In this document: one piece after another, positions 52,867 to 64,000 of the stretch
Numbering within the stretch: the stretch's first letter is position 1
Layout of the letters: every line of letters starts with the position of its first letter
DNA from: Hyphomonas chukchiensis
Lineage (GTDB): Bacteria; Pseudomonadota; Alphaproteobacteria; Caulobacterales; Hyphomonadaceae
NCBI RefSeq assembly: GCF_000682695.1
Contig: NZ_AWFG01000052.1
Location: 124,001 to 188,000, forward strand
DNA length: 64,000 bases
Direction: 5' to 3'
Made by a program: the position numbers and the translations under genes
The notes under the pieces: model-generated
The model's input: only the letters and a program-made list of their open reading frames with translations
Databases searched by the model: none
Told to the model about the DNA's origin: nothing

Positions 52867-53012
52867 ACAGCGACCTTGACACTTCACGGCATAAAGCGAA
52901 TCCATCACTCTATGGGTCTAAACATTCGTCTGAAAATGGACTGTTTCAAGACAATGTCTGTGACCTGGTAGCGATGTTAAAATATCATCGTCAATGAGGA
53001 CGTGACAAAATC

Positions 53013-53567
53013 TCAGCGACGCTGCCCAATCGCCTTAGCGGCCAAGGTCGAGGCAGCAAGGATCTGCTTTTTTGACGCGCCAGATCTGGCGAGTGCGTGA
53101 AATCCGAGCGCGGATGCCAGAGCGAAAGACGCCAGCGCCTCGTCACCACCACTCAACCTTTTCAGTTTGCGCAACAAATCAGAACGGATGCGCCGGACCT
53201 GCCGGCGCAAGGCCGGGTCGAACTGGGGCGACTGGACGAGCGCCTCGGACAGCATACACCCCCGATTTCCCTGCTTTGCGACAAATGCGCCAACAGCTTC
53301 GAGAAATTCCACAAGCTCGCGTCGCTGGCCAGCCTCGCCCTCAAGCATGTCCAGCCGGGGAAGGAGCGTGAATTCCATATAGCGGCGGAGGGCGTCGAGG
53401 AAGGCGGTCGGCTTGTCCCTGAAGGCGGCATAGAAGCTGCCACGCTGGATGCCGGCAGATTGCTGCAATTTGTCGACGTCGGCGCCATTATAGCCGTGGG
53501 TCCAGAACACGTCGACGAGCGCGTCCAGCGCCAGATCTCTGTCAAAGCTGCGAGGTCTTCCTGCCAT
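53013..53567 (-). CDS. TetR/AcrR family transcriptional regulator
   Basis: The 184-residue protein has the TetR DNA-binding domain (AGRPRSFDRDLALDALVDVFW, with recognition helix IQRGSFYAAFRDK around residues 38-53) and a helical ligand-binding part with LGFHALARSG near the end. This subgroup (GNRGCMLSEAL) often controls small oxidoreductase or efflux genes. It lies upstream of the two AhpD-like genes, all on the minus strand, which suggests that it regulates them; a palindrome in front of the second fits a TetR operator. Confidence 0.92.
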   Translation of the reverse strand: MAGRPRSFDRDLALDALVDVFWTHGYNGADVDKLQQSAGIQRGSFYAAFRDKPTAFLDALRRYMEFTLLPRLDMLEGEAGQRRELVEFLEAVGAFVAKQGNRGCMLSEALVQSPQFDPALRRQVRRIRSDLLRKLKRLSGGDEALASFALASALGFHALARSGASKKQILAASTLAAKAIGQRR

Positions 53568-53656
53568 GCGCCCTAAATGTCGTCTGCAGCAGCCTTCGGC
53601 AAGGGACCGCTGCAGACGTTTCTCACAATTTCCGGATTCTGGCGGCCTCTGCGCCC

Positions 53657-54217
53657 CTAGTCCGCGACAGGGTCGACCCAGGAAAAACGGGCAAAAGCCG
53701 GGTCAACAGGCGTATCGGCTATGTGATTCACATAATTTGACAGGGTCTTCTGGGCGACCCCGAGTAGCACATCCAGCACATGCCGCCTCGCATAACCTGC
53801 CTCAAGGAACGTGCTCACCTGCTGCGTATCCAACACGCCCCGCTGGCGAACAATCGCCAGCGTGAATTGACGCAAGGCCTCCAGTTTGGGGTCATCCAGC
53901 GCATCACCGGCACGCAAAGCATTGATCGTCGCTTCGTCGACCCCTTGCATCATGGCGATTGCGGTATGGGCTGGCACACAATAGTGGCAGGCGTTTTCAA
54001 CATTAATCGTAAGCCAGACCACATTCCGCTCAACCTTGCTCAGGTCTGACCGCTCGAACAATTCATGCAGGTTCTTGTAGGCTTCAAGGTGCTCAGGGCT
54101 TTCGGCCATGACGGCATGCAGGTTGGGGATTCTCCCGAAGGCCTTGGCGGATTCTTTCAGAAGTGGCCTTGCGGCTTCAGGCGCCGTGTCGATGGTATGC
54201 AAATCAAATAATGCCAT
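53657..54217 (-). CDS. Carboxymuconolactone decarboxylase-like (AhpD-fold) protein
   Basis: The 186-residue all-helical protein has the AhpD-type redox motif ENACHYCVPAHT, with C77, C80 and H84 in the C-x2-C-x3-H arrangement. AhpD-like proteins act as thiol peroxidases or electron donors against peroxides. The C-terminal part (KTLSNYVNHIADTPVD) is typical of the subfamily with this CxxC. It is the middle gene of a TetR/AhpD-like/AhpD-like set next to the bufferin cluster; a link to copper or redox stress is inferred from position. Confidence 0.9.
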   Translation of the reverse strand: MALFDLHTIDTAPEAARPLLKESAKAFGRIPNLHAVMAESPEHLEAYKNLHELFERSDLSKVERNVVWLTINVENACHYCVPAHTAIAMMQGVDEATINALRAGDALDDPKLEALRQFTLAIVRQRGVLDTQQVSTFLEAGYARRHVLDVLLGVAQKTLSNYVNHIADTPVDPAFARFSWVDPVAD

Positions 54218-54303
54218 GGGTCTTTCTCCTTGAGGCCCTTCTAGCTGGGTATTCTGTACTGACCGATCAAGAACAGGATAACTGAATTATTCCGAACTGG
54301 CGC

Positions 54304-54861
54304 TCAGGTGATACCTGCATCCCGTCCCCAGGACAGGTACGACCCGCTCCTGCGTCGTTCGATGGCTTCAGGCGACGGGTCGGCATATTCTTCTCCCGGA
54401 AGAATACCCGCGGCATCGACCACCCGGTTCATGAACGCATACAGCCCGCAAACGAGCGCGGCATCGTGTATCGCCTCTTCTGACCAGCCGGCCTTCAGCA
54501 GTCCCGCGACATCGCTACGGCGCACAAGTGACGGAGTCAGGGCGAGCTTTTCGAGGAACCGGAGCAATTTCAGGAATCGGGCTGGAAGCGGGGCCTCGTC
54601 AAATCGCTCAAACAACATGTCGACCAGTGCCGGATCAACATCGAACGCGTGCGCCATGAGCTTGTGTGCGCCATAGCAGAACTTGCACTGATTAAGGCCT
54701 GAGACCCAGGCTGCTATCAGCTCCCGTTCGCCAATTGACAGCTCGCTATCGCTTCGCAGGACAGCGTCGTGGAACGCGAGCAGTGGCTCGACGCCCCTTG
54801 GGAATCGTTTGAACAGGTCGCTCAGATGCGCGCGGTCCGGAAGGCTCGGATAATAGCTCAT
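54304..54861 (-). CDS. Peroxidase-related AhpD-fold protein
   Basis: A 185-residue protein starting at MSYYPSLPDRAH, after AAAGGAAA. The redox motif is SGLNQCKFCYGAHKLMAH, with C59, C62 and H66. It fits the uncharacterised peroxidase-related subgroup of the AhpD/CMD family rather than classic carboxymuconolactone decarboxylase. It is divergent from the bufferin precursor gene; a perfect 14-base palindrome lies 77 bases upstream of its start, probably an operator for the nearby TetR protein. Confidence 0.88.
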   Translation of the reverse strand: MSYYPSLPDRAHLSDLFKRFPRGVEPLLAFHDAVLRSDSELSIGERELIAAWVSGLNQCKFCYGAHKLMAHAFDVDPALVDMLFERFDEAPLPARFLKLLRFLEKLALTPSLVRRSDVAGLLKAGWSEEAIHDAALVCGLYAFMNRVVDAAGILPGEEYADPSPEAIERRRSGSYLSWGRDAGIT

Positions 54862-54937
54862 GTCGGATTTCCTTTCACGGCGAGTGGTACAGCATTGCAT
54901 ATAAGCGAGGATTGTCAGTCCCCGCATAAGAAATAGT

Positions 54938-54951
54938 GGACTGAACAGTCC
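54938..54951. promoter_or_regulatory. Palindromic operator candidate between divergent genes
   Basis: GGACTGAACAGTCC is an inverted repeat with 6-base arms and a 2-base centre. It lies 77 bases before the AhpD-like gene (minus) and 122 bases before the bufferin precursor gene (plus). The size and symmetry fit a TetR-type operator, and a TetR gene stands 1.4 kb away in the same group. A weaker related pattern (TGTACTGACCGATCA) lies in the gap at 54262-54285. Confidence 0.45.
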
Positions 54952-55072
54952 GGAATGCCGGATCGTTGATCCTTCCGCACGCTTTCGTGAGTTTCAGTTC
55001 AATAGGGCTTCACGTATTCAGACCCTGCGCCGCCAAACTTGCGGAGCTGATTTCAACCTGGAGACTAGACAT

Positions 55073-55444
55073 ATGTCGCACACAACGTTCATTGCAAAAT
55101 CCCTGATCGCTGGCCTTGCACTCGCCGCAGCCGCTGGCGCCGCAAACGCGAAGCCAAACGCTCAACTTACCCTGGCCGACAATGCGCCCGCGGACGTTCA
55201 GTCCGCCTTCACGGCATGGCAGGCTGGTGAGCGAATCGAAGGCCGCAAGGACAAATGTTACGGTATTGCCCTTGCTGGCGAGAACGATTGCAAGGCCGGC
55301 AAAGGAACAAGCTGCGAAGGCACATCCACCGTCGACTTCCAGGGAAATGCCTGGACGTTCGCGCCCAAAGGCTCCTGCGACTTCATCGTCTCGCCCGAAG
55401 GTCCTGCTGCGTTGAACGAACTGGATCGTAATACACCGGCCTGA
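55073..55444 (+). CDS. bufA: Bufferin-type RiPP precursor (DUF2282)
   Basis: The 123-residue protein has a Sec signal peptide (about residues 1-26, ending in AGAANA) and the DUF2282 core. The core has four conserved cysteines: C62 in [15 protein letters not shown]73, C81 in [15 protein letters not shown] and C102 in PKGSCDF. DUF2282 proteins are now known in Caulobacter as bufferins, exported peptides whose cysteines are converted by an MNIO enzyme to thiooxazole groups that bind copper. The ATG has CTGGAG eight bases upstream. The MNIO enzyme and its partner follow directly, so this is the precursor of the cluster. Copper binding here is inferred from the family. Confidence 0.93.
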
Positions 55445-55480
55445 TCCCAGCCCGGCAACAGAGTTCCTCGGATCACAGTC

Positions 55481-56338
55481 ATGCAACTTCCACCGTCCCC
55501 CCCGTCCACTGCGGGTCTCGGGCTAAAACCGGAGCACTTTGCTCCGGCGCTCGAGACCGAAGTTGAAGGATTGTGGTTCGAGGTTCACCCTGAAAACTAT
55601 ATGGTCCAAGGCGGCCCACGCCTGGCCTGGCTGACTGCTATCCGCGAAAAGCGCCAGCTCAGCTTTCACGGCGTCGGCGCGTCTCTCGGCGGACTGGATC
55701 CATTCGACAGGCAGCACACCCATGATCTACGTTTATTGATCGAGCGGTTCGATCCGTTTCAGGTGTCCGAGCACGCAACGTTCTCCGCGCACAAGACGCG
55801 CTACCATGCAGATCTGCTGCCGCTTCCCCGTACACAGGAAGCGCTGATACATCTTGCAGACCGGGTCGATGCTTTCCAGGCCTTGATCGGTCGGCGAATT
55901 CTGATCGAAAACCCCACCAACTACCTGCCGTTCGCCTGCGAGCTCGACGAACCTGAATTTCTTGTGGAAGTCGCCCGCCGATCCGGATGCGGTCTCCTGA
56001 TGGACATCAATAATATCTGGGTGAGTGCAAATAATGTCGGCGTGGACCCTTATGCTTATGTTCGCGCAATCCCTGGCGAGCTCGTCGGCGAGATTCACGT
56101 TGCAGGGCACTCGCAAGACCCTGGGCTTGGCGCCAAATTTCTGATCGACAGTCATGACGCGCCCGTCAGTGAGGGCGTGTGGCACCTTTTGGCCGTTGCG
56201 CTTCACGCATGGGGGGCCAGGCCGGTCCTCGTTGAACGTGATGGCAATATCCCACCGTTTGACGACTTGCTTGCCGAATTTCACCACGCCACGCGGATAC
56301 TGACAGCTTCACAAGAGGCGGCACACGATGCGGCTTGA
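55481..56338 (+). CDS. bufB: MNIO family RiPP-modifying enzyme (DUF692)
   Basis: The 285-residue TIM-barrel protein of DUF692, the multinuclear non-haem iron oxidase family. Candidate iron ligands are in LSFHGVGASLGG (H63), SEHATFS (H98), IENPTNY (E143), LLMDINNIW (D175), GEIHVAGH (H206, H210), SHDAPV and LVERDGNIP (E252). It should modify cysteines of the DUF2282 precursor in the cytoplasm before export. It starts 36 bases after the precursor gene and overlaps bufC by 11 bases, which indicates tight coupling. Confidence 0.95.
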   Translation: MQLPPSPPSTAGLGLKPEHFAPALETEVEGLWFEVHPENYMVQGGPRLAWLTAIREKRQLSFHGVGASLGGLDPFDRQHTHDLRLLIERFDPFQVSEHATFSAHKTRYHADLLPLPRTQEALIHLADRVDAFQALIGRRILIENPTNYLPFACELDEPEFLVEVARRSGCGLLMDINNIWVSANNVGVDPYAYVRAIPGELVGEIHVAGHSQDPGLGAKFLIDSHDAPVSEGVWHLLAVALHAWGARPVLVERDGNIPPFDDLLAEFHHATRILTASQEAAHDAA

Positions 56339-57143
56339 GCAGCATATCGAAGCCATGTCGTCCTTCGCTGCTGGCCGCGCCGGCGCCGCTGCGCTTACCC
56401 CTTTGATGGACTCCAGAGCGCACCCGGGCCAGCGCGCGCAAGTCTATCGCAATTCTGGCATCCTCGCCTGCGTTGAGGCCCTCAGGTCCAACAATCTACG
56501 ACTGGCAGCCGTCATGGGCGACGCGTTTTTCAGTGCCCTGGCACGGGCCTATGCCGATGCGGAACCGCCCTCGACCCGGAGTCTGGTCGGATACGGTGTG
56601 TCGCTCGCTCATTTTATCGCCGCAGCTGAATCTGAACATGGACTGCCCTGGCTCGCAGATATCGCCCGGCTGGACCGGGGTTGGCTCAATGCCCACCTCG
56701 CACCAGATGCAGACCCGCTGGCACCGGGCGCGCTTGCCGAGATCGATGGCTCGACCCTGATGGTATCCACCCTGACCATGCATCCGAGCCTTAATATTAT
56801 CGACATCGAATGGGCGGTGGCATCCCTTTGGACAGACCTGAAATCAGGCGAGCTTCCGAACCGCCAGATGCACCTGGCGTGCCGATCTGAACACGTTCTT
56901 TTCTGGCGTCCCGAAGGAGAGGTCAGGATGCGCGTTCTTCATCCCGGAGAACACGCGTTTCTCAGTTCGGCCATGTCCCAATCGCCACTTGGGGATGCAT
57001 GTGAAGCCGCCCTGGCTGCCGAGCCGTCTATTGATCTTTCGCATCTCATTGCCGGCGCCGTCTCGTCGGGATTGTTCATCACCATCGCTCAACAAGGGGG
57101 AGCTAATCATGATACTCATTCAGAGGCTGCAGGCTGGTTATAG
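56328..57143 (+). CDS. bufC: MNIO partner protein (DUF2063)
   Basis: The 271-residue protein starts inside the end of bufB. Its N-terminal part (about residues 1-100) has the DUF2063 helical pattern RAQVYRNSGILACVEALRSN and AVMGDAFFSALARAYADAEPPSTRSL, which in characterised systems binds the precursor leader and delivers it to the MNIO enzyme. The C-terminal half is a mixed alpha/beta domain (VLFWRPEGEVRMRVLHPGEH). The end overlaps the DoxX gene by 35 bases, a long overlap that is unusual but supported by the strong ribosome site of doxX. Confidence 0.92.
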   Translation: MRLEQHIEAMSSFAAGRAGAAALTPLMDSRAHPGQRAQVYRNSGILACVEALRSNNLRLAAVMGDAFFSALARAYADAEPPSTRSLVGYGVSLAHFIAAAESEHGLPWLADIARLDRGWLNAHLAPDADPLAPGALAEIDGSTLMVSTLTMHPSLNIIDIEWAVASLWTDLKSGELPNRQMHLACRSEHVLFWRPEGEVRMRVLHPGEHAFLSSAMSQSPLGDACEAALAAEPSIDLSHLIAGAVSSGLFITIAQQGGANHDTHSEAAGWL

Positions 57144-57642
57144 CTGGCTTACCAGCAAGGCCAACATGCTGGAACCGTTTGCGCTACTTATCGCGCGCCT
57201 GGCCGTGGCCCGGGTATTTTTCATGTCAGGGCTTACAAAATGGAATGGCTTCCTGTCATTCAACCCTGACAAATACGACCTCTTCCTGTTCGAATTCTTC
57301 TGCCCGGAAGATAAGCGCGCTGGCGCCCTCGTGCTGTGCACAGACCAGGCGGCGGGCACATACGCACCGACAACACAATGGATTGTCGAGCGCTTCGCCA
57401 ACATGGCCGGTATCATGGAAATCCTTCTGCCGATCCTTCTTGTCCTCGGACTGACGTCAAGACTGGCGGCCGCCGGACTGCTCACGATGACCCTGGTGAT
57501 CGAACGCCTTGTCTTCCCGGATGCCGATAGCTGGTGGGGTAGTCACGTCTGGTGGGCGGCCATCCTGTTTGTGATCGTCGCCCGTGGTCCCGGCCGATTC
57601 TCTCTTGACCGACTATTCAAGCTCGAATCCTCGAGAACGTGA
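57109..57642 (+). CDS. DoxX family membrane protein
   Basis: A 177-residue protein with four membrane helices and the DoxX pattern LLIARLAVARVFFMSGLTKW near the N-terminus and EILLPILLVLGLTSRLAAAGLL in the middle. The ATG is chosen because AAGGGGGAG stands just upstream. DoxX proteins are common last genes of bufferin-type operons; they may pass electrons or help oxygen or thiol chemistry in the membrane, but the role is not settled. Its stop overlaps the next gene by GTGA. Confidence 0.93.
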   Translation: MILIQRLQAGYSWLTSKANMLEPFALLIARLAVARVFFMSGLTKWNGFLSFNPDKYDLFLFEFFCPEDKRAGALVLCTDQAAGTYAPTTQWIVERFANMAGIMEILLPILLVLGLTSRLAAAGLLTMTLVIERLVFPDADSWWGSHVWWAAILFVIVARGPGRFSLDRLFKLESSRT

Positions 57643-59294
57643 GAGCCTTGGGGGCCAGCATGTTTCGATCCACCCCAAAATGGTTCTGGCTTGGCTGTGG
57701 CGCACTGGGGATCGGTACAGTCCTGGTCGTCCTCCTCAGCTCAGGCTGGCTCGGTTTTCGCCTCGTGCAACTTGAGTGGAAAACGCAAGGCAGCACAGAC
57801 CTCAGATTTGTATCCGTTGATCTGGCGTTCGAGAACCAGTCAGACATCCAGGCAAAGTCGGGATCCCTGCCCTTCATGGCGGGCGTGGTCATCGATACTG
57901 ATCGTGATATCTACGACGAGGTGTTCCTGGGAGGAGGCCGTGATCAACCGGATGCACTTTTCAGCTACAGCGCCTTGCTCGGGAGGTTTGTAAATCAGAG
58001 CGCAGATCATGATCTCTCAAAACCTTCAAGCGATGCAACAATGGGCGGCGTCTCCGTCGACGTCGACCGGGATGGATGGACCGATTTGATTCTTGCCCGC
58101 GAGAGCGGCGTCTGGTTGTATCTCAACTCCAGTGGCAGACTCGGTGATGGAAGAACCATTTTCAAGCCGGAAGCCGGCACCACCGCTCTTTCGGTGACAC
58201 CTGGAGACGTCAATGCCGATGGGCATGTCGATCTCTACGTTTCCGGCTATATCAGCAATGATCGCGTCGAGGGTCAGACCATCTTCACGCGCCCTTACGG
58301 AGGCTACAGTTATCTGTTGCTGGGGGATGCGGCAGGCGACTTCACCGACGCAACGGAATTGTGGGGCCTACGCCGCCAGCACAACACGTTCACGGCCGTC
58401 CTGGCCGATATCGATGATGATGGTGACCCAGACCTGGTCGTTGCCCAGGACACAGGACATGTCGAAATCTGGAGAAACAACGACGCGCCGCCTTTCGAGC
58501 GGCTCGAAAGCCCATCCGTGAATTCCTATCCAATGGGGATCGCAGCAGGCGATTTTACCGGTGACGGCGCCCTCGATTTCTATTTCTCGAATGTCGGGAA
58601 CACTCTGCCGTCCTCGCTTCTGCGCGGTGACTTGCCGAAATCAGCGCCATTCAATTCCAACTACATGCTGTTTGTCGGCAACGACCAGGGAGGCTTCAGC
58701 GACCATGCCGCTGAAATGAACGCCGCACGGTTGGGTTTCGGCTGGGGTGTGGTTGCGGCTGATTTCAATCTCGATGGCTGGGAAGACATCGCCGTCGCCC
58801 AGAATTACGCCAAGTTCGGACAACCGGCACTGATCCACCGCTATGCCGGAAAGATTCTGCAAAATACCCGGGGGCGCAAATTCAACCCGGTAGAGAAGCG
58901 CGCAGGCGTGGCCAATCGGCTATTTGCTATTTCCCCACTGGTCGGTGACTTTAACGGCGACGGCCTGCCCGATCTAATCTGGGCCAATCTCAAGGGGCCG
59001 GCCAGGGCTTTCCTCAATGCAACGCCCGACCGGCATGGTATACGCATTCGGCTCGACGACTCGGTTTCAGCCTATTCGGCCCGTATTGAGGTTCTTGTCG
59101 ATGGTCGAACACTTGTCCGCCAGGCGGTACCGGCTCAGGGACTGTGTTCCGATAGCACGGCGGATATTTTCATCGGACTGGGCGATGCCGCGACCGCCGG
59201 GAGAATTACCCTCCGGTTTCCGGATGGCGAGGTACGCTCAGCAGAGCAAGTCGCGGCCAACACCGTCCTGGACTGGCGGGTCGATGCGCCATGA
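57639..59294 (+). CDS. FG-GAP repeat / ASPIC-UnbV-type secreted protein
   Basis: A protein of about 551 residues with an N-terminal membrane anchor or uncleaved signal (WFWLGCGALGIGTVLVVLL). It carries at least five FG-GAP/VCBS-type calcium loops of the form DxDxDGxxDL: DVDRDGWTDLI, DVNADGHVDLY, DIDDDGDPDLV, DFTGDGALDFY, DFNLDGWEDIA, DFNGDGLPDLI. The tail (RIEVLVDGRTLVRQ and RITLRFPDGEVRSAE) matches the ASPIC/UnbV domain of CRTAC1-like proteins. It probably forms a beta-propeller in the periplasm or on the surface. The GTG overlaps the doxX stop by four bases; an ATG at 57660 is the alternative start. Its link to bufferin function is new to me. Confidence 0.85.
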   Translation: MRALGASMFRSTPKWFWLGCGALGIGTVLVVLLSSGWLGFRLVQLEWKTQGSTDLRFVSVDLAFENQSDIQAKSGSLPFMAGVVIDTDRDIYDEVFLGGGRDQPDALFSYSALLGRFVNQSADHDLSKPSSDATMGGVSVDVDRDGWTDLILARESGVWLYLNSSGRLGDGRTIFKPEAGTTALSVTPGDVNADGHVDLYVSGYISNDRVEGQTIFTRPYGGYSYLLLGDAAGDFTDATELWGLRRQHNTFTAVLADIDDDGDPDLVVAQDTGHVEIWRNNDAPPFERLESPSVNSYPMGIAAGDFTGDGALDFYFSNVGNTLPSSLLRGDLPKSAPFNSNYMLFVGNDQGGFSDHAAEMNAARLGFGWGVVAADFNLDGWEDIAVAQNYAKFGQPALIHRYAGKILQNTRGRKFNPVEKRAGVANRLFAISPLVGDFNGDGLPDLIWANLKGPARAFLNATPDRHGIRIRLDDSVSAYSARIEVLVDGRTLVRQAVPAQGLCSDSTADIFIGLGDAATAGRITLRFPDGEVRSAEQVAANTVLDWRVDAP

Positions 59295-59962
59295 CTTGTG
59301 TCGACACCAATCCTCGTCAAAACCTTGTCTGGTTCGGAATTGCCGGCCTTGTCGGCGCCCTGCTGACCGGGATCGGCGAAGGGGTCTTGCAACTTGTCCC
59401 GGGGGGCAATTACACAGACCCGGACTATGGATTTTTTCTGGATGTCAGTCGGGCAAGATTGACGTTTGGGCACTTCCTCAGCGTCTCGGCTGCCCCTCTC
59501 TATCTTGCCGGTTATTGGCACCTCACAGGTCATCTCCTGCCGCAAGCGCCCAAATGGCGTTTTGGAATTTTCGTATGTTGCGCCTGGGCGTTCATTCTCG
59601 CAACGGTCTGGATCGGTCAACGCGCGTTGATTGCTGAAACCGTGCAAGATCTCAGTTCGGACGGAGCCAGCCTGGATCTTCTGGTTCACCAGAGGTTGCT
59701 TCACGAGCCCTTGGTGAATGCACTTCGCTTCGTCATGGCGGCCTTTTCGATTATCTGGATACGGCGCATCCTTTCGGGAAAGACACGCTACCCGCGCTGG
59801 ATGGCATTGTTCAGTCCGGCACTTTTGCTCGCTCTGATTTTTGGCCTATATGCCGCGGCGCCCGTGATCGGATGGCTGGTATTGCCGACGGCCATGAACA
59901 CGTCACACGCCATACTTTTCACATTGTCCCTCCTCACGACGAGCCGGATTGAAGGACAATGA
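59291..59962 (+). CDS. Polytopic membrane protein, possibly DUF6796
   Basis: A 223-residue protein with about six hydrophobic helices (for example FGIAGLVGALLTGIGEGVL, FGIFVCCAWAFILATVWIG, LFSPALLLALIFGLYAAAP). The pattern of GLVGALLTGIGEGVLQ then GHFLSVSAAPLYLAGYWHL recalls the DUF6796 family, which I assign only tentatively. It starts with an ATGA overlap with the FG-GAP gene and ends with an ATGA overlap with the next membrane gene. No enzymatic motif is seen. Confidence 0.72.
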   Translation: MTCVDTNPRQNLVWFGIAGLVGALLTGIGEGVLQLVPGGNYTDPDYGFFLDVSRARLTFGHFLSVSAAPLYLAGYWHLTGHLLPQAPKWRFGIFVCCAWAFILATVWIGQRALIAETVQDLSSDGASLDLLVHQRLLHEPLVNALRFVMAAFSIIWIRRILSGKTRYPRWMALFSPALLLALIFGLYAAAPVIGWLVLPTAMNTSHAILFTLSLLTTSRIEGQ

Positions 59963-60360
59963 CATCGCGGTTGTTTCTGGCCATTGTCGCCATGTTTGGA
60001 CTGATTCCGGCAGCTTTGTTGACGGGAGAACATTTCTCGACGGGTACCGCTTGTCCTCTGATCGGACCGCTACCTGCCTGCCTTCTTGTCTTCGCTGGAT
60101 ATGGTCTCATTTTCTATTCCGCGATGGCATGGGGATGGAAGAGACATTTGGCGTTCCTGGCCGGATGGTTGCCTGTCGCTTTTCTTGCGTTTCTCGCGAC
60201 GGTTCTCGAGATCGCCAACGGGCCCTTCTGTCCACGTGCATTTGGCTTTCTGCCACAGTGTTTCCTCTCCCTGCTGCTATCTGTGCTCATCGGAGCCGTC
60301 TGGGTGACCGGAATTCTGCGTCACCGCAAAGCCCGATACTTCGAAAGGTCAAGAAGATGA
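59959..60360 (+). CDS. Small polytopic membrane protein, family not recognised
   Basis: A 133-residue protein with four helices (FLAIVAMFGLIPAALLTG, CLLVFAGYGLIFYSAMAW, FLAGWLPVAFLAFLATVL and a fourth in CFLSLLLSVLIGAVWVTG). It has four cysteines, three of them (TACPLIGPLPAC, NGPFCPRAFG and PQC) near membrane ends, which could serve redox or metal chemistry, but no family is recognised. ATGA overlaps on both sides show translational coupling. The second reading frame across this stretch is a shadow of the downstream lipoprotein frame. Confidence 0.7.
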   Translation: MTSRLFLAIVAMFGLIPAALLTGEHFSTGTACPLIGPLPACLLVFAGYGLIFYSAMAWGWKRHLAFLAGWLPVAFLAFLATVLEIANGPFCPRAFGFLPQCFLSLLLSVLIGAVWVTGILRHRKARYFERSRR

Positions 60361-61691
60361 AACGCCTTTGCTTGCTAGCCCTGTGTGCTCTGCTGGGCGG
60401 TTGCGTCAGCGTCTACCCTGCAGCCGTTTCGCCGACGCCCTGGGAGACTTCAGGTGCAGCGGCGTCGCGGCCGGGAGACGGCGTGCCACAAAACACCTCG
60501 CAGATGCTTTATGTCACGGATCGCAACATGCTCGAGACCGAACAAGGCTTTGGTACCGACCGGTCGACCGCGATGGCTTTTGGCCATGTCAGGATTGACA
60601 CCACCAATATGGGGCAGCGAGACTTCGACGCCTACATGTCGGGACACGCGATCAGCGACAAGCGACCGCGTTATGCCGCGACGCTGACTGATGAAATCGT
60701 TCGGTTTCCGGGAACGCCCCTGCCTTTTGCGATCGAGAAGGGCGTGCTCATCCGTGATAGAAGCGCAATGGCCGCCTACAAGGGCGCAGGCGCACAATTT
60801 CAAGCCGCACTCACGCAGGAGCTGGAAGACAACGACACCGGCAAAGTCATTCTCTATGTTCACGGCTTCAACAATACGTTCGATGATGGTGCGTTCAACC
60901 TGTTCGAACTCTGGTCAGCTGCCGGCAGGGCCGGCGTCCCGATACTGTTCAGCTGGCCGACGGGCGGGCACAAGGCATTGGGCTACTTCAGTGACACGCA
61001 AAGCGGTGACTTTTCAGTCTACCATCTGAAAGAAACGCTGCGACTCATCTCTGCAACAGGAGCGGTCGATGAGTTAGTTGTTGTTACGCACAGTCACGGC
61101 GCATCAATTGTGACGTCAGCCCTGCGGGAACTGTTGATCGAATCCCGAGGTGCTGGAGTATCGATGCGCGACACTTATCGGATCGACACTTTGATCATGG
61201 CTGCGCCAGACATCGATCTTGGCGTGATGGAGCAACGTCTTGTCGCCGAAGCCTTCGGCATCGGATTTGGCCAGATCGATGTCTATCTCAACCCAGGCGA
61301 CAACGCGCTTGGTCTTGCTGGCTGGATATTTGGGTCGCCGCGATTTGGCGCAGCCCGGCCCGATCAATTGTCGCCTGAATCGCGGGCTGTTTTTCAGGGC
61401 GTCAAATCCGTTCACTTCATCATGGTCCAGGACGCCAATCAGTTTGATAGGCACAATTATTTTCGGCTACATCCAGGCGTCCTCGCAGACATCGCCGTCA
61501 CACTCCGTACCGGCGCCCGTCCTGGCGACCGCGAGCGTGGGCTTGTACATATTGACCTGAATTTCTGGCAGATCGACCAGACCTACAGGCCAGGCCAGGC
61601 TGAGTCGGGACGATCCAGATCCGCTCTGCCTGCCCGGACTTACAGCAGCCATCCATCTGAAAGTCGCGCCTCAGGAGGGTCAAGCCATTGA
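60357..61691 (+). CDS. DUF900-type alpha/beta hydrolase lipoprotein
   Basis: The 444-residue protein starts at the ATG after AAAGG that overlaps the previous stop. It has a lipoprotein signal (MKRLCLLALCALLGGC). The body is a DUF900-type hydrolase: NTSQMLYVTDRN, then ILYVHGFNNTFDDGAFN, FSWPTGG, and VVTHSHGASIVTSALRELL, where the Ser lies in HSHGA, a variant of the usual G-x-S-x-G elbow. It may be an esterase at the outer or inner membrane. It ends with a TTGA overlap with the GGDEF-EAL gene. A longer frame from 59949 was rejected because it would overlay the membrane gene. Confidence 0.9.
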   Translation: MKRLCLLALCALLGGCVSVYPAAVSPTPWETSGAAASRPGDGVPQNTSQMLYVTDRNMLETEQGFGTDRSTAMAFGHVRIDTTNMGQRDFDAYMSGHAISDKRPRYAATLTDEIVRFPGTPLPFAIEKGVLIRDRSAMAAYKGAGAQFQAALTQELEDNDTGKVILYVHGFNNTFDDGAFNLFELWSAAGRAGVPILFSWPTGGHKALGYFSDTQSGDFSVYHLKETLRLISATGAVDELVVVTHSHGASIVTSALRELLIESRGAGVSMRDTYRIDTLIMAAPDIDLGVMEQRLVAEAFGIGFGQIDVYLNPGDNALGLAGWIFGSPRFGAARPDQLSPESRAVFQGVKSVHFIMVQDANQFDRHNYFRLHPGVLADIAVTLRTGARPGDRERGLVHIDLNFWQIDQTYRPGQAESGRSRSALPARTYSSHPSESRASGGSSH

Positions 61692-63754
61692 GCCGCGACG
61701 TGCCTGGCGTCCTCACTCATCGCGCTCTCGAAGGGAACGTGCATATGCAAACCAGACCAGCCGCACCTGACACACAACTCGAGAATGAAATCCGGATAGG
61801 CGATCGCTCGATCGCGCTTGTAACAGCCATACTCCTGATCCTGATGGCGCTGGTATACGTGATGACCCCGGCGCCCGGTGATGCAAGTTCGAAAAGCTTG
61901 GATCCTGTCTGGCCGGCCATGTCTGCGCTCGCAATCCTATCGCTTTTCCGCATCTACATGTCACGTCGGCGACCGCTTCCGTCCTGGCTTTCATACATAA
62001 CAATGGCTGGCGAATTTGCCGTCCTGTTCACTCTGATCGTCTGTTTTGAAGCCAAGTATGATCAGCCTCCTGCTTTTGTGCTGAAATCACCGACGGTCAT
62101 CTGGCTCTTCGTTCTGATTGGCCTGCGAGCCCTGAGATTAGATCCCCTGGAGGTTCTCGCAGCCGGCGCAATGGCTGCCACCGGATGGACCGGCCTGACC
62201 CTGTGGGCTGTCTGGCAAAGTCCGCCGAGTGCAATAACGCACGACTTTGTGGCCTATATGTCCGGACCGTCCATTCTTGTCGGCGCCGAAGTCGAGAAAG
62301 TCCTCGCCATTCTCCTGTTCTCGTTCAGCCTCGCGATTGCGATGCGGCGAGGACAGCGCTTCATGGGGCGTGTGACTGATTATGCCAGCCAGCTCGTGCG
62401 CCTGCTGAAAAAGGAAAAGCGCCTTCTCGCAAAGCTCAGGCAGGAATCTGAAGAACGACAGCAGACAGCGCGTCAGCTGCATGATGCCTTGTACACAGAT
62501 GCCCTGACAGGGCTGCCCAGCCGGCAGGCACTGAATGATGAACTCGATCAGCGGGCAAGGCAGCGCCCCTTTCGCCCGCTCCGGCTTGTTCTCGTTGATC
62601 TCTGCAGCTTCAGGCGTTTCAACGACACAATGGGCCGGGTTGCCGGGGATGCGCTGCTTGTGCGCGCGGCTCAGGACCTGCGTGGCGCGTCCCGGCCTTC
62701 GACATTCATCGCGCGGATCGCCGCAGACGAATTCGCGATTCTTGCGTCCGTGCACCCGGATGAATTGGAAGGCGAGGATATTCCGAGCCTTGGGAGTTTC
62801 GGCCGGTCGATTGACGCTGGCAGCTTCACGTTCTCAGGGGGGGCCAATTCCGGTGCCGCATGGGCGAGGGAGTCTCGGGATATCCCGATGCTGATGCACA
62901 ATGCCAGCCTCGCCCTGAACGAGGCCAAGCGCCTCGGGCGCCAGAGGTCGGTTGACTTTGACAAGGGGCAACGCCAGCGCGCCGAGCGCCTTGCTCAGTT
63001 GGAATCCCACTTGCACACAGCCATCCGGAGCCGCCAGTTGTGGGTCGCCTACCAGCCGATCGTTTGCTTGTCGACCAATCTGCTCGCAGGTTGGGAGGCG
63101 CTGCTGCGCTGGACGCACCCTTTGCTGGGTCCGGTGCCGCCGGTCGATTTCATTCCGCTGCTTGAAGAATCTGGCCTGATCAACCAGGTCGGCCGCCGCA
63201 TCCTGATCGTTGCGGCTGAAGACGCGCGCCGCATGTCGCTCGCGCTCGGCCGGAAAGACCTCTTCATGAGCGTCAACGTGTCCCCGTTTCAGCTCAACGA
63301 GCCCTCTACACTTGTGGGAGCCGTCCACAAGGCGCGTACGCGCTTTGCCCGGCTGAAACTGGAGCTCACCGAGAGTGGTGTGGCCGAGGATCCTGTCCGC
63401 GCCCGGTCGGTCCTGTCACAGTTGCGAGACGCCGGGGTTGAATTGTCACTGGACGATTTCGGCACCGGCATGTCGTCGCTGGCCCACCTTCAGCAATTCG
63501 AGTTCGACTATCTCAAGATCGACCGGGCCTTTGTCCAGAGTGACGAGGACGCCTTTATCAAGGGAATCCTGCTCCTTGCCGGCTCACTTGGGCTCGTCAC
63601 GATTGCCGAGGGCATTGAAACAGATGCAGACCGGAAAAGGCTGCTTGAACTCGGAGCGCGGTATGGTCAGGGTTATTTCTGGGGCGCAGCAACGCCAGCA
63701 GCGGCATGGATCAACGGCGCGCCTTTTACTACCTTCCGCAAGGCAGCAGTCTGA
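61688..63754 (+). CDS. Membrane GGDEF-EAL protein, degenerate GGDEF with intact EAL
   Basis: A protein of about 688 residues: six or so membrane helices in residues 40-225, a GGDEF domain (about 270-425) and an EAL domain (about 435-680). The GGDEF motif is AADEF (residues 345-349) and the inhibitory RxxD is RPST, so cyclase activity is unlikely. The EAL domain keeps its metal and catalytic residues: WEALLRW (E470), SVNVSPFQL, KLELTES, LDDFGTGMSS (D589, D590), YLKIDRAF, AEGIET and GQGYFWG. It is most likely a c-di-GMP phosphodiesterase, perhaps tuned by GTP. The TTG start has AGGAGG nine bases upstream; an ATG at 61745 with AAGGGA is the alternative. Confidence 0.92.
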   Translation: MSRDVPGVLTHRALEGNVHMQTRPAAPDTQLENEIRIGDRSIALVTAILLILMALVYVMTPAPGDASSKSLDPVWPAMSALAILSLFRIYMSRRRPLPSWLSYITMAGEFAVLFTLIVCFEAKYDQPPAFVLKSPTVIWLFVLIGLRALRLDPLEVLAAGAMAATGWTGLTLWAVWQSPPSAITHDFVAYMSGPSILVGAEVEKVLAILLFSFSLAIAMRRGQRFMGRVTDYASQLVRLLKKEKRLLAKLRQESEERQQTARQLHDALYTDALTGLPSRQALNDELDQRARQRPFRPLRLVLVDLCSFRRFNDTMGRVAGDALLVRAAQDLRGASRPSTFIARIAADEFAILASVHPDELEGEDIPSLGSFGRSIDAGSFTFSGGANSGAAWARESRDIPMLMHNASLALNEAKRLGRQRSVDFDKGQRQRAERLAQLESHLHTAIRSRQLWVAYQPIVCLSTNLLAGWEALLRWTHPLLGPVPPVDFIPLLEESGLINQVGRRILIVAAEDARRMSLALGRKDLFMSVNVSPFQLNEPSTLVGAVHKARTRFARLKLELTESGVAEDPVRARSVLSQLRDAGVELSLDDFGTGMSSLAHLQQFEFDYLKIDRAFVQSDEDAFIKGILLLAGSLGLVTIAEGIETDADRKRLLELGARYGQGYFWGAATPAAAWINGAPFTTFRKAAV

Positions 63755-63804
63755 CATGGGCGAATTGACCGCCTGCCACCGCTTGAAGAGAGTTTGACGA
63801 CATC

Positions 63805-63993
63805 ATGCGCCCCATCCTGACCAGAGGTCTCATTGTCGCGATACTGGTCGGTTCGCTCCTGACCCTGATCAACCAGTTCGAACGGGTCGTGGCGGTTGAA
63901 CCCCTGAACTGGTGGAAAATGGGCCTCAGCTATATTGTACCTTTCTGCGTGTCGGTCTTCAGCGCCATGGCTGTCGGCCCCAAGTCAGACTGA
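63805..63993 (+). CDS. NrtS-like small membrane protein
   Basis: A 62-residue protein with two helices (LIVAILVGSLLTLINQF and MGLSYIVPFCVSVFSAMAV) and the pattern VGxxLTLINQ...LxWWKxxLxYxVPFxVS, which resembles the NrtS family reported in cyanobacteria as a nitrate/nitrite transporter of two small subunits. Only one such subunit is visible here. It follows the GGDEF-EAL gene by 50 bases and could be part of the same transcript or a separate one. Confidence 0.72.
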   Translation: MRPILTRGLIVAILVGSLLTLINQFERVVAVEPLNWWKMGLSYIVPFCVSVFSAMAVGPKSD

Positions 63994-64000
63994 CCCACGC

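Follow-up and report, generated by a model that had tools for sequence, protein, structure and literature searches.

In bufferin biosynthesis, as described in the main text of a 2025 survey (PMC12452194), BufB and BufC modify cysteine residues of the precursor BufA; the modified peptide is exported through Sec and goes on to chelate copper. In Caulobacter, according to the relevant text of PMC3511200, CC3254–CC3257 encode DUF2282, DUF692, DUF2063, and DoxX proteins, with sigF-nrsF adjoining. Here, we analyze a stretch of 64,000 nt from Hyphomonas chukchiensis (contig NZ_AWFG01000052.1, positions 124001–188000; contig C52 of genome G000, 3.86 Mb), hereafter the window, in which nine genes on the forward strand were confirmed in the order bufA, bufB, bufC, doxX, fgGAP, tm223, tm133, lipo900, and a GGDEF-EAL gene. 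The first four correspond in content and order to the Caulobacter Buf1 (gig-type) operon; unlike in Caulobacter, NrsF is missing from the genome, no sigma-F site precedes bufA, and four envelope genes follow doxX. These four form a lineage-specific, conserved envelope extension of the bufferin operon, whereas a coupling to cyclic di-GMP (c-di-GMP), proposed in an earlier reading of the DNA letters alone (the sequence-only reading), does not hold.

FG-GAP, ASPIC, DUF900, GGDEF, and EAL are all absent from the main text of the 2025 survey, its supplement aside. Within the portions of the literature covered by our searches, no text joined bufferin-side terms (DUF692, DUF2282, DUF2063) with the FG-GAP, UnbV, or CRTAC1 families, none mentioned DUF900 or DUF6796, and none described such an extension, although supplementary tables may mention this neighborhood. 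Hyphomonas and bufferins both occur in PMC12509749.

A bufferin-1 core followed by four conserved genes

The precursor gene bufA (55073–55444, +; DUF2282, PF10048, E 1.3e-20) encodes four Cys residues that are kept in all six aligned orthologs; read by eye for a Sec signal peptide, the N-terminus is hydrophobic, with AxA ahead of the mature part. It adjoins bufB (55481–56338, +), whose product matches the MNIO enzyme family (Pfam MbnB_TglH_ChrH, PF05114, E 1.7e-87) and aligns with the solved relatives MbnB and the DUF692 protein 3bww. The DUF2063 (PME-type 1) partner is encoded by bufC (56328–57143, +; PF09836, E 8.3e-12), followed by doxX (57109–57642, +; Pfam DoxX, PF07681, E 1.9e-9), a frequent bufferin core gene that reached 38 of the 80 bits needed for the NCBIfam HvfX family. 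With all four families matched, the copper-binding RiPP (ribosomally synthesized and post-translationally modified peptide) core recognized by the sequence-only reading is, on domain content, an ordinary bufferin-1 operon. Bufferin-1 products are characterized by copper-binding thiooxazoles derived from Cys.

Behind it, also on the forward strand, lie fgGAP (57660–59294), with a predicted N-terminal helix, a CRTAC1-like propeller, and an ASPIC end (PF13517, PF01839, and PF07593, all over cut-offs); tm223 (59291–59962), encoding a DUF6796 membrane protein (PF20599, 40.9 bits against a cut-off of 26.9) and partner of fgGAP in a recurrent pair; tm133 (59959–60360), a membrane protein gene to which the Pfam search assigned no family; and lipo900 (60357–61691), for a DUF900 alpha/beta-hydrolase with a lipobox-like Cys16 (PF05990, E 8.4e-40).

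Conservation was assessed in a family sample of 105 genomes and a class-wide sample of 376 or 385 genomes, depending on the query; the window's genus is represented by 42 genomes (G000 and G036–G076). The genome-wide search for tm223 covered the class sample, and tm133 was compared at the level of the loci; the locus scan used two short N-terminal peptides as queries and can miss distant relatives. Neighborhood gene lists came from our own script, which combines open reading frames (ORFs) with codon use, and not from an annotation pipeline. In the family sample, fgGAP matches 29 genomes at E 0.001 or better, with close orthologs (E 1e-210 or better, 58–100% identity) in six: G000, G049, G040, G056, G057, and G021. 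The next match has E 2.6e-14. BufB occurs in 15 of the 105 (E 1e-20 or better), and within the genus the same five of 42 genomes carry both BufB and a close fgGAP. The order bufABC-doxX-fgGAP-tm223-tm133-lipo900 is identical in all five, four of them non-identical (G000, G040, G056, G057); G049 equals the window in all ten proteins compared and is not counted as independent. A metagenome contig (L040), 93–100% identical to the window, keeps this order from bufB up to the contig end at lipo900.

Identity to the window in the relatives' loci is 29–49% for tm133, 50–68% for tm223, 57–68% for lipo900, and 61–76% for fgGAP. G000, G040, and G056/G057 have different flanks: in the 18-kb loci of the relatives, the window's flanking genes are represented only by weak paralogue hits (25–34%) and by a divergent TetR-CMD-CMD block. 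The four tail genes are fixed behind doxX, with their order and tight packing kept. The sequence-only reading had extended the core by a coupled tail of five genes; linkage in related genomes holds for the first four, in all four non-identical core-bearing genomes of the genus, and fails for the fifth, the GGDEF-EAL gene.

Predicted properties of the tail proteins

The fgGAP model is a propeller (mean predicted local distance difference test, pLDDT, 81.8) preceded by a helix of low confidence (pLDDT about 44–68). By far its best solved structural match is murine CRTAC1 (E 3.5e-23, template modeling scores 0.70/0.69), which is also the best solved match by sequence (E 2.7e-16). The FG-GAP propeller and C-terminal UnbV_ASPIC domain are shared with CRTAC1/ASPIC-UnbV FG-GAP proteins; fgGAP differs from CRTAC1 in being bacterial, in having an N-terminal helix instead of secretion, and in a sequence identity of 16%. 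If the modeled helix is correct, it would tether the propeller to the inner membrane, on the periplasmic side. The sequence-only reading had described a surface calcium propeller, a label that the model does not establish.

The tm223 model is a bundle of about six long helices (mean pLDDT 89.1), for which a search for structural relatives gave no informative match; the protein resembles other DUF6796 membrane proteins by family and is set apart from them by its pairing with fgGAP. In tm133, a C-P-x(6)-A-C pair is kept in all four aligned rows and a second Cys pair in two of the four. The lipobox-like C16 and an H245-S246-x-G248 elbow are invariant in all four rows of lipo900, which, by its domain, lipobox-like Cys, and Ser nucleophile elbow, is a predicted DUF900 lipoprotein hydrolase. 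Among DUF900 hydrolases it represents a narrow lipoprotein subfamily, with close members only in the six module-bearing family genomes.

Junctions and extent of the operon

According to the sequence-only reading, every junction after bufC is an overlap. The 4-nt ATGA overlaps at fgGAP/tm223, tm223/tm133, and tm133/lipo900 stand, as does the 35-nt overlap of bufC and doxX (bufB and bufC overlap by 11 nt). The GTGA overlap of doxX and fgGAP is doubtful because the orthologs start at an ATG aligned with position 57660 of the window, which leaves a 17-nt gap after doxX; GTG 57639 probably does not serve as the start codon. Between lipo900 and the GGDEF-EAL gene, a 53-nt gap (start at ATG 61745) is as possible as a TTGA overlap (start at TTG 61688): AGGAGG, a ribosome-binding-like sequence, precedes the TTG, and the 72% identical ortholog of G057 is similar only from the ATG. 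In G040, G056, and G057, all junctions between bufB and lipo900 lie within the limits of a 14-nt overlap and a 25-nt gap.

Scans over 53000–64000 found no promoter-like or terminator-like site at the doxX/fgGAP junction. Across this interval both kinds of site occur at chance level (4 promoter-like against 4.2 expected; 12 terminator-like against 9.0 expected, standard deviation 2.8). Contrary to the sequence-only reading, the run continues past 63754: a 62-aa NrtS-like ORF follows at 63805–63993 (+; NCBIfam NrtS, 27.6 bits, cut-off 25). Its counterpart lies 3 nt after lipo900 in G056 and G057; in G040, neither an NrtS-like nor a GGDEF-EAL gene was found after lipo900.

The GGDEF-EAL gene (61688–63754, +) is a neighbor that we judge to lie outside the conserved unit. 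It is present at the locus only in G000 and the identical copy G049 and is absent there from all three non-identical relatives (G040, G056, G057), the G057 ortholog being on another contig; on synteny, we reject it as a member of the unit. Matches to the query in 104 of the 105 family genomes reflect generic GGDEF/EAL similarity, and full-length close orthologs are limited to G000, G049 (100%), and G057 (72%), the next being G086 at 38%. In the usual functional interpretation of these motifs, the protein is likely a phosphodiesterase, because its GGDEF site is degenerate (AADEF in the window and G057) while EAL-type motifs are kept; compared with other GGDEF-EAL phosphodiesterases, only its position is unusual. 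The gene is best explained as a latecomer to the operon end, probably unrelated to the bufferin operon; its loss from the other three genomes is a less simple alternative.

Relatives of this gene adjoin CMD genes in G057 and G086, together with a TetR gene in G086 (L086:7986-10866, L087:4831-8180), which may reflect an older partnership with AhpD-like proteins. In G090, a 30% identical relative lies upstream of a bufferin operon on the same strand (L065:3887-6433).

Co-occurrence without linkage

In the family sample, lipo900 matches 13 genomes at E 1e-20 or better, and close orthologs (E 1.7e-201 or better) occur in the same six as close fgGAP; the next match is G015 (6e-95). All six carry bufB. 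The sixth, Henriciella G021, has its parts on separate contigs: bufABC-doxX on C12, fgGAP-tm223 on C32, and lipo900 on C44. These very likely belong to one genome because their composition matches (GC 0.56–0.57; mutual tetranucleotide correlations of 0.95–0.96, against 0.77–0.88 with six other loci). Among the 29 genomes of the genus Henriciella sampled, only G021 has BufB, a close fgGAP, and a close lipo900. This unlinked co-occurrence, seen in one genome, is the strongest indication that the parts function together and hints at a link beyond position. Hypergeometric values computed for the co-occurrence take no account of kinship, and we do not treat them as probabilities.

In the class sample, MNIO enzymes are common (144 of 376 genomes), and fgGAP (E 1e-40 or better) and tm223 (E 1e-8 or better) are found in 3 and 4 of 385 genomes, respectively; of 376 genomes, only that of the window has a close lipo900. 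The fgGAP-tm223 pair stands beside queA/tgt (named by eye from ORFs) in the Parvularcula genome G105 and in G106, and is present in G117 as well. G106 encodes a more distant MNIO and NrsF on the same contig. In G293, a distant fgGAP was found, with no tm223 match and no MNIO; some genomes of this group are incomplete metagenome assemblies. Overall, tm223 accompanies fgGAP at eight of the nine fgGAP loci of alignment A5, the exception being G293. The fgGAP/DUF6796 pair is an older module that was later recruited and does not require bufferin, because it is present in G105 and G117, where no MNIO was detected in either genome. In phylogenetic trees, the G021 fgGAP groups with the Hyphomonas rows (support 83/81) and the G021 tm223 with G105/G106 (92/88), a conflict under which the history could be one of ancestral scatter or of later breakup.

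Divergent block and candidate regulatory sites

Upstream of bufA, the reverse strand carries genes for a TetR-type regulator (53013–53567, −; Pfam TetR_N) and two AhpD-like CMD proteins: CMD 1 (53657–54217, −; Pfam CMD, TIGR01926 below cut-off) and, divergent from bufA, CMD 2 (54304–54861, −; ORF extending to 54927), which scored over the cut-off of the peroxidase-related TIGR01926. The block (53013–54927) is common to G000, G049, G056, and G057, with identities in G056/G057 of 62%/59% for TetR, 74%/73% for CMD 1, and 57% in both for CMD 2. In G106, too, the bufferin operon has an AhpD-like CMD gene in its vicinity (L062:4811-5368).

A tandem repeat of two 11-bp half-sites 21 bp apart (54959–54990, +) is a possible regulator site for bufA. 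It was scored with a weight matrix built from the upstream regions of G056, G057, G021, and G040, whose own scores are partly circular. The window was held out, and 0 of 200 resampled controls scored as high; the buf region of G088, also held out, has a weaker repeat (p 0.035). In both the repeat sits about 110–120 bp before bufA. The half-site spacing is 21 bp in the window, G040, G056, and G057 and 20 bp in G021. The matrix also gave p 0.020 for the fgGAP region of G117, where no link is expected, and p 0.075–0.97 for the fgGAP regions of G021, G105, and G106, the lipo900 region of G021, and the buf regions of G106, G090, and G094. The palindrome GGACTGAACAGTCC (54938–54951), a possible TetR operator, is a lead only: taken alone, neither it nor a like core in G056 exceeds chance (19 and 33 of 100 shuffles, respectively, scored as well).

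No sigma-F site with up to two mismatches was found in 54928–55072, ahead of bufA; the whole window holds 41 sigma-F-like matches against 35.2 expected. NrsF (PF06532) had no match in genomes G000, G049, G040, G057, G021, and G088. In G106 and all four g10 genomes searched, it is encoded on the buf-operon contig within about 3 kb of bufB; in G056, it lies on a different contig from the buf operon. A response regulator that binds the repeat may act in place of sigma-F. In G021, a gene that by eye resembles one for an OmpR-type response regulator ends 95 bp ahead of the unlinked pair of fgGAP and tm223 (L021:11888-12583, −).

Possible roles of the extension

The explanation that we favor, with confidence evenly divided for and against, is that, within the Hyphomonas lineage, a bufferin-1 operon acquired an envelope module of four genes and that the tail acts in copper and oxidative envelope stress. 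The predicted locations of the tail products, together with the hydrolase and the AhpD-like pair of the divergent block, suggest with low confidence an accessory role in the envelope, as opposed to one in peptide chemistry. Anchored in the inner membrane through its helix, the propeller would form a periplasmic docking or sensing platform with tm223; the tm133 Cys pair could hold a metal or a disulfide; and lipo900 might remove damaged lipids or esters. Together with the AhpD-like pair, the locus would constitute an island for copper and oxidative stress of the envelope. The probable start of transcription is upstream of bufA, where a regulator reading the tandem repeat would replace the sigma-F/NrsF of Caulobacter. 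We count in favor the conserved order and packing, the co-occurrence in six genomes, the scattered parts of G021, the restriction of close lipo900 in the class sample to the window's genome, the differing flanks, the tandem repeat, and the missing NrsF. Weighing against it, the unlinked co-occurrence is that of a single genome, G021; the repeat was not found before its fgGAP or lipo900, so common control is not seen there; the TetR-CMD-CMD block is missing at the G040 locus; nine of the 15 family genomes with BufB, including G088 and eight of genus g10, lack a close fgGAP; and G105 and G117 carry the pair yet have no detected MNIO.

The last of these points also suits a passenger, in which a stand-alone envelope operon became fused by chance behind doxX in one Hyphomonas ancestor and was inherited with no functional tie. 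The linkage is limited to one genus and may be a single event, and the pair stands alone beside queA/tgt in G105 and G106. We nevertheless consider such a history doubtful, given an order and packing that persisted despite divergence to 29–49% (tm133) through 61–76% (fgGAP) identity, flanks that differ between genomes, and the presence of all three parts, unlinked, in G021 while the other 28 genomes of its genus are without each close ortholog. The conserved coupling and the envelope-located look of the products also fit a more specific role in bufferin handling: the propeller would bind the exported peptide or its copper complex, tm223 and tm133 would couple it to transport or sensing, and the hydrolase would act on the peptide or its anchor. 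Propellers of the same fold include the ligand-binding heads of integrins. Such a dedicated periplasmic receptor machine, docking or retrieving copper-loaded bufferin, recruited from the older propeller/DUF6796 module and kept even where scattered (Henriciella), is distinctly unlikely; the pair exists without bufferin, and the conserved block holds no exporter or TonB receptor. Least probable by a wide distance, and largely refuted by synteny, is the nine-gene unit of the sequence-only reading, in which the c-di-GMP enzyme couples the metallopeptide to a lifestyle switch. Co-direction, close spacing, the ribosome-binding-like sequence before TTG 61688, and the kept EAL motifs would agree with it, but the gene is not at the locus in G040, G056, or G057.

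The four tail genes are named candidates for a step that follows the export of a bufferin, because they are kept behind the core despite divergence and partly co-occur when unlinked. Two further features of the locus are the propeller/DUF6796 pair, which in other genomes is found on its own, and a candidate site for a regulator in the absence of sigma-F. The genus includes a named, sequenced species, H. johnsonii. Small DoxX-like membrane proteins other than the core doxX product are encoded near buf loci in G056 (L019:11844-12266) and G106 (L062:5374-5769), the latter alone scoring over the DoxX_2 cut-off.

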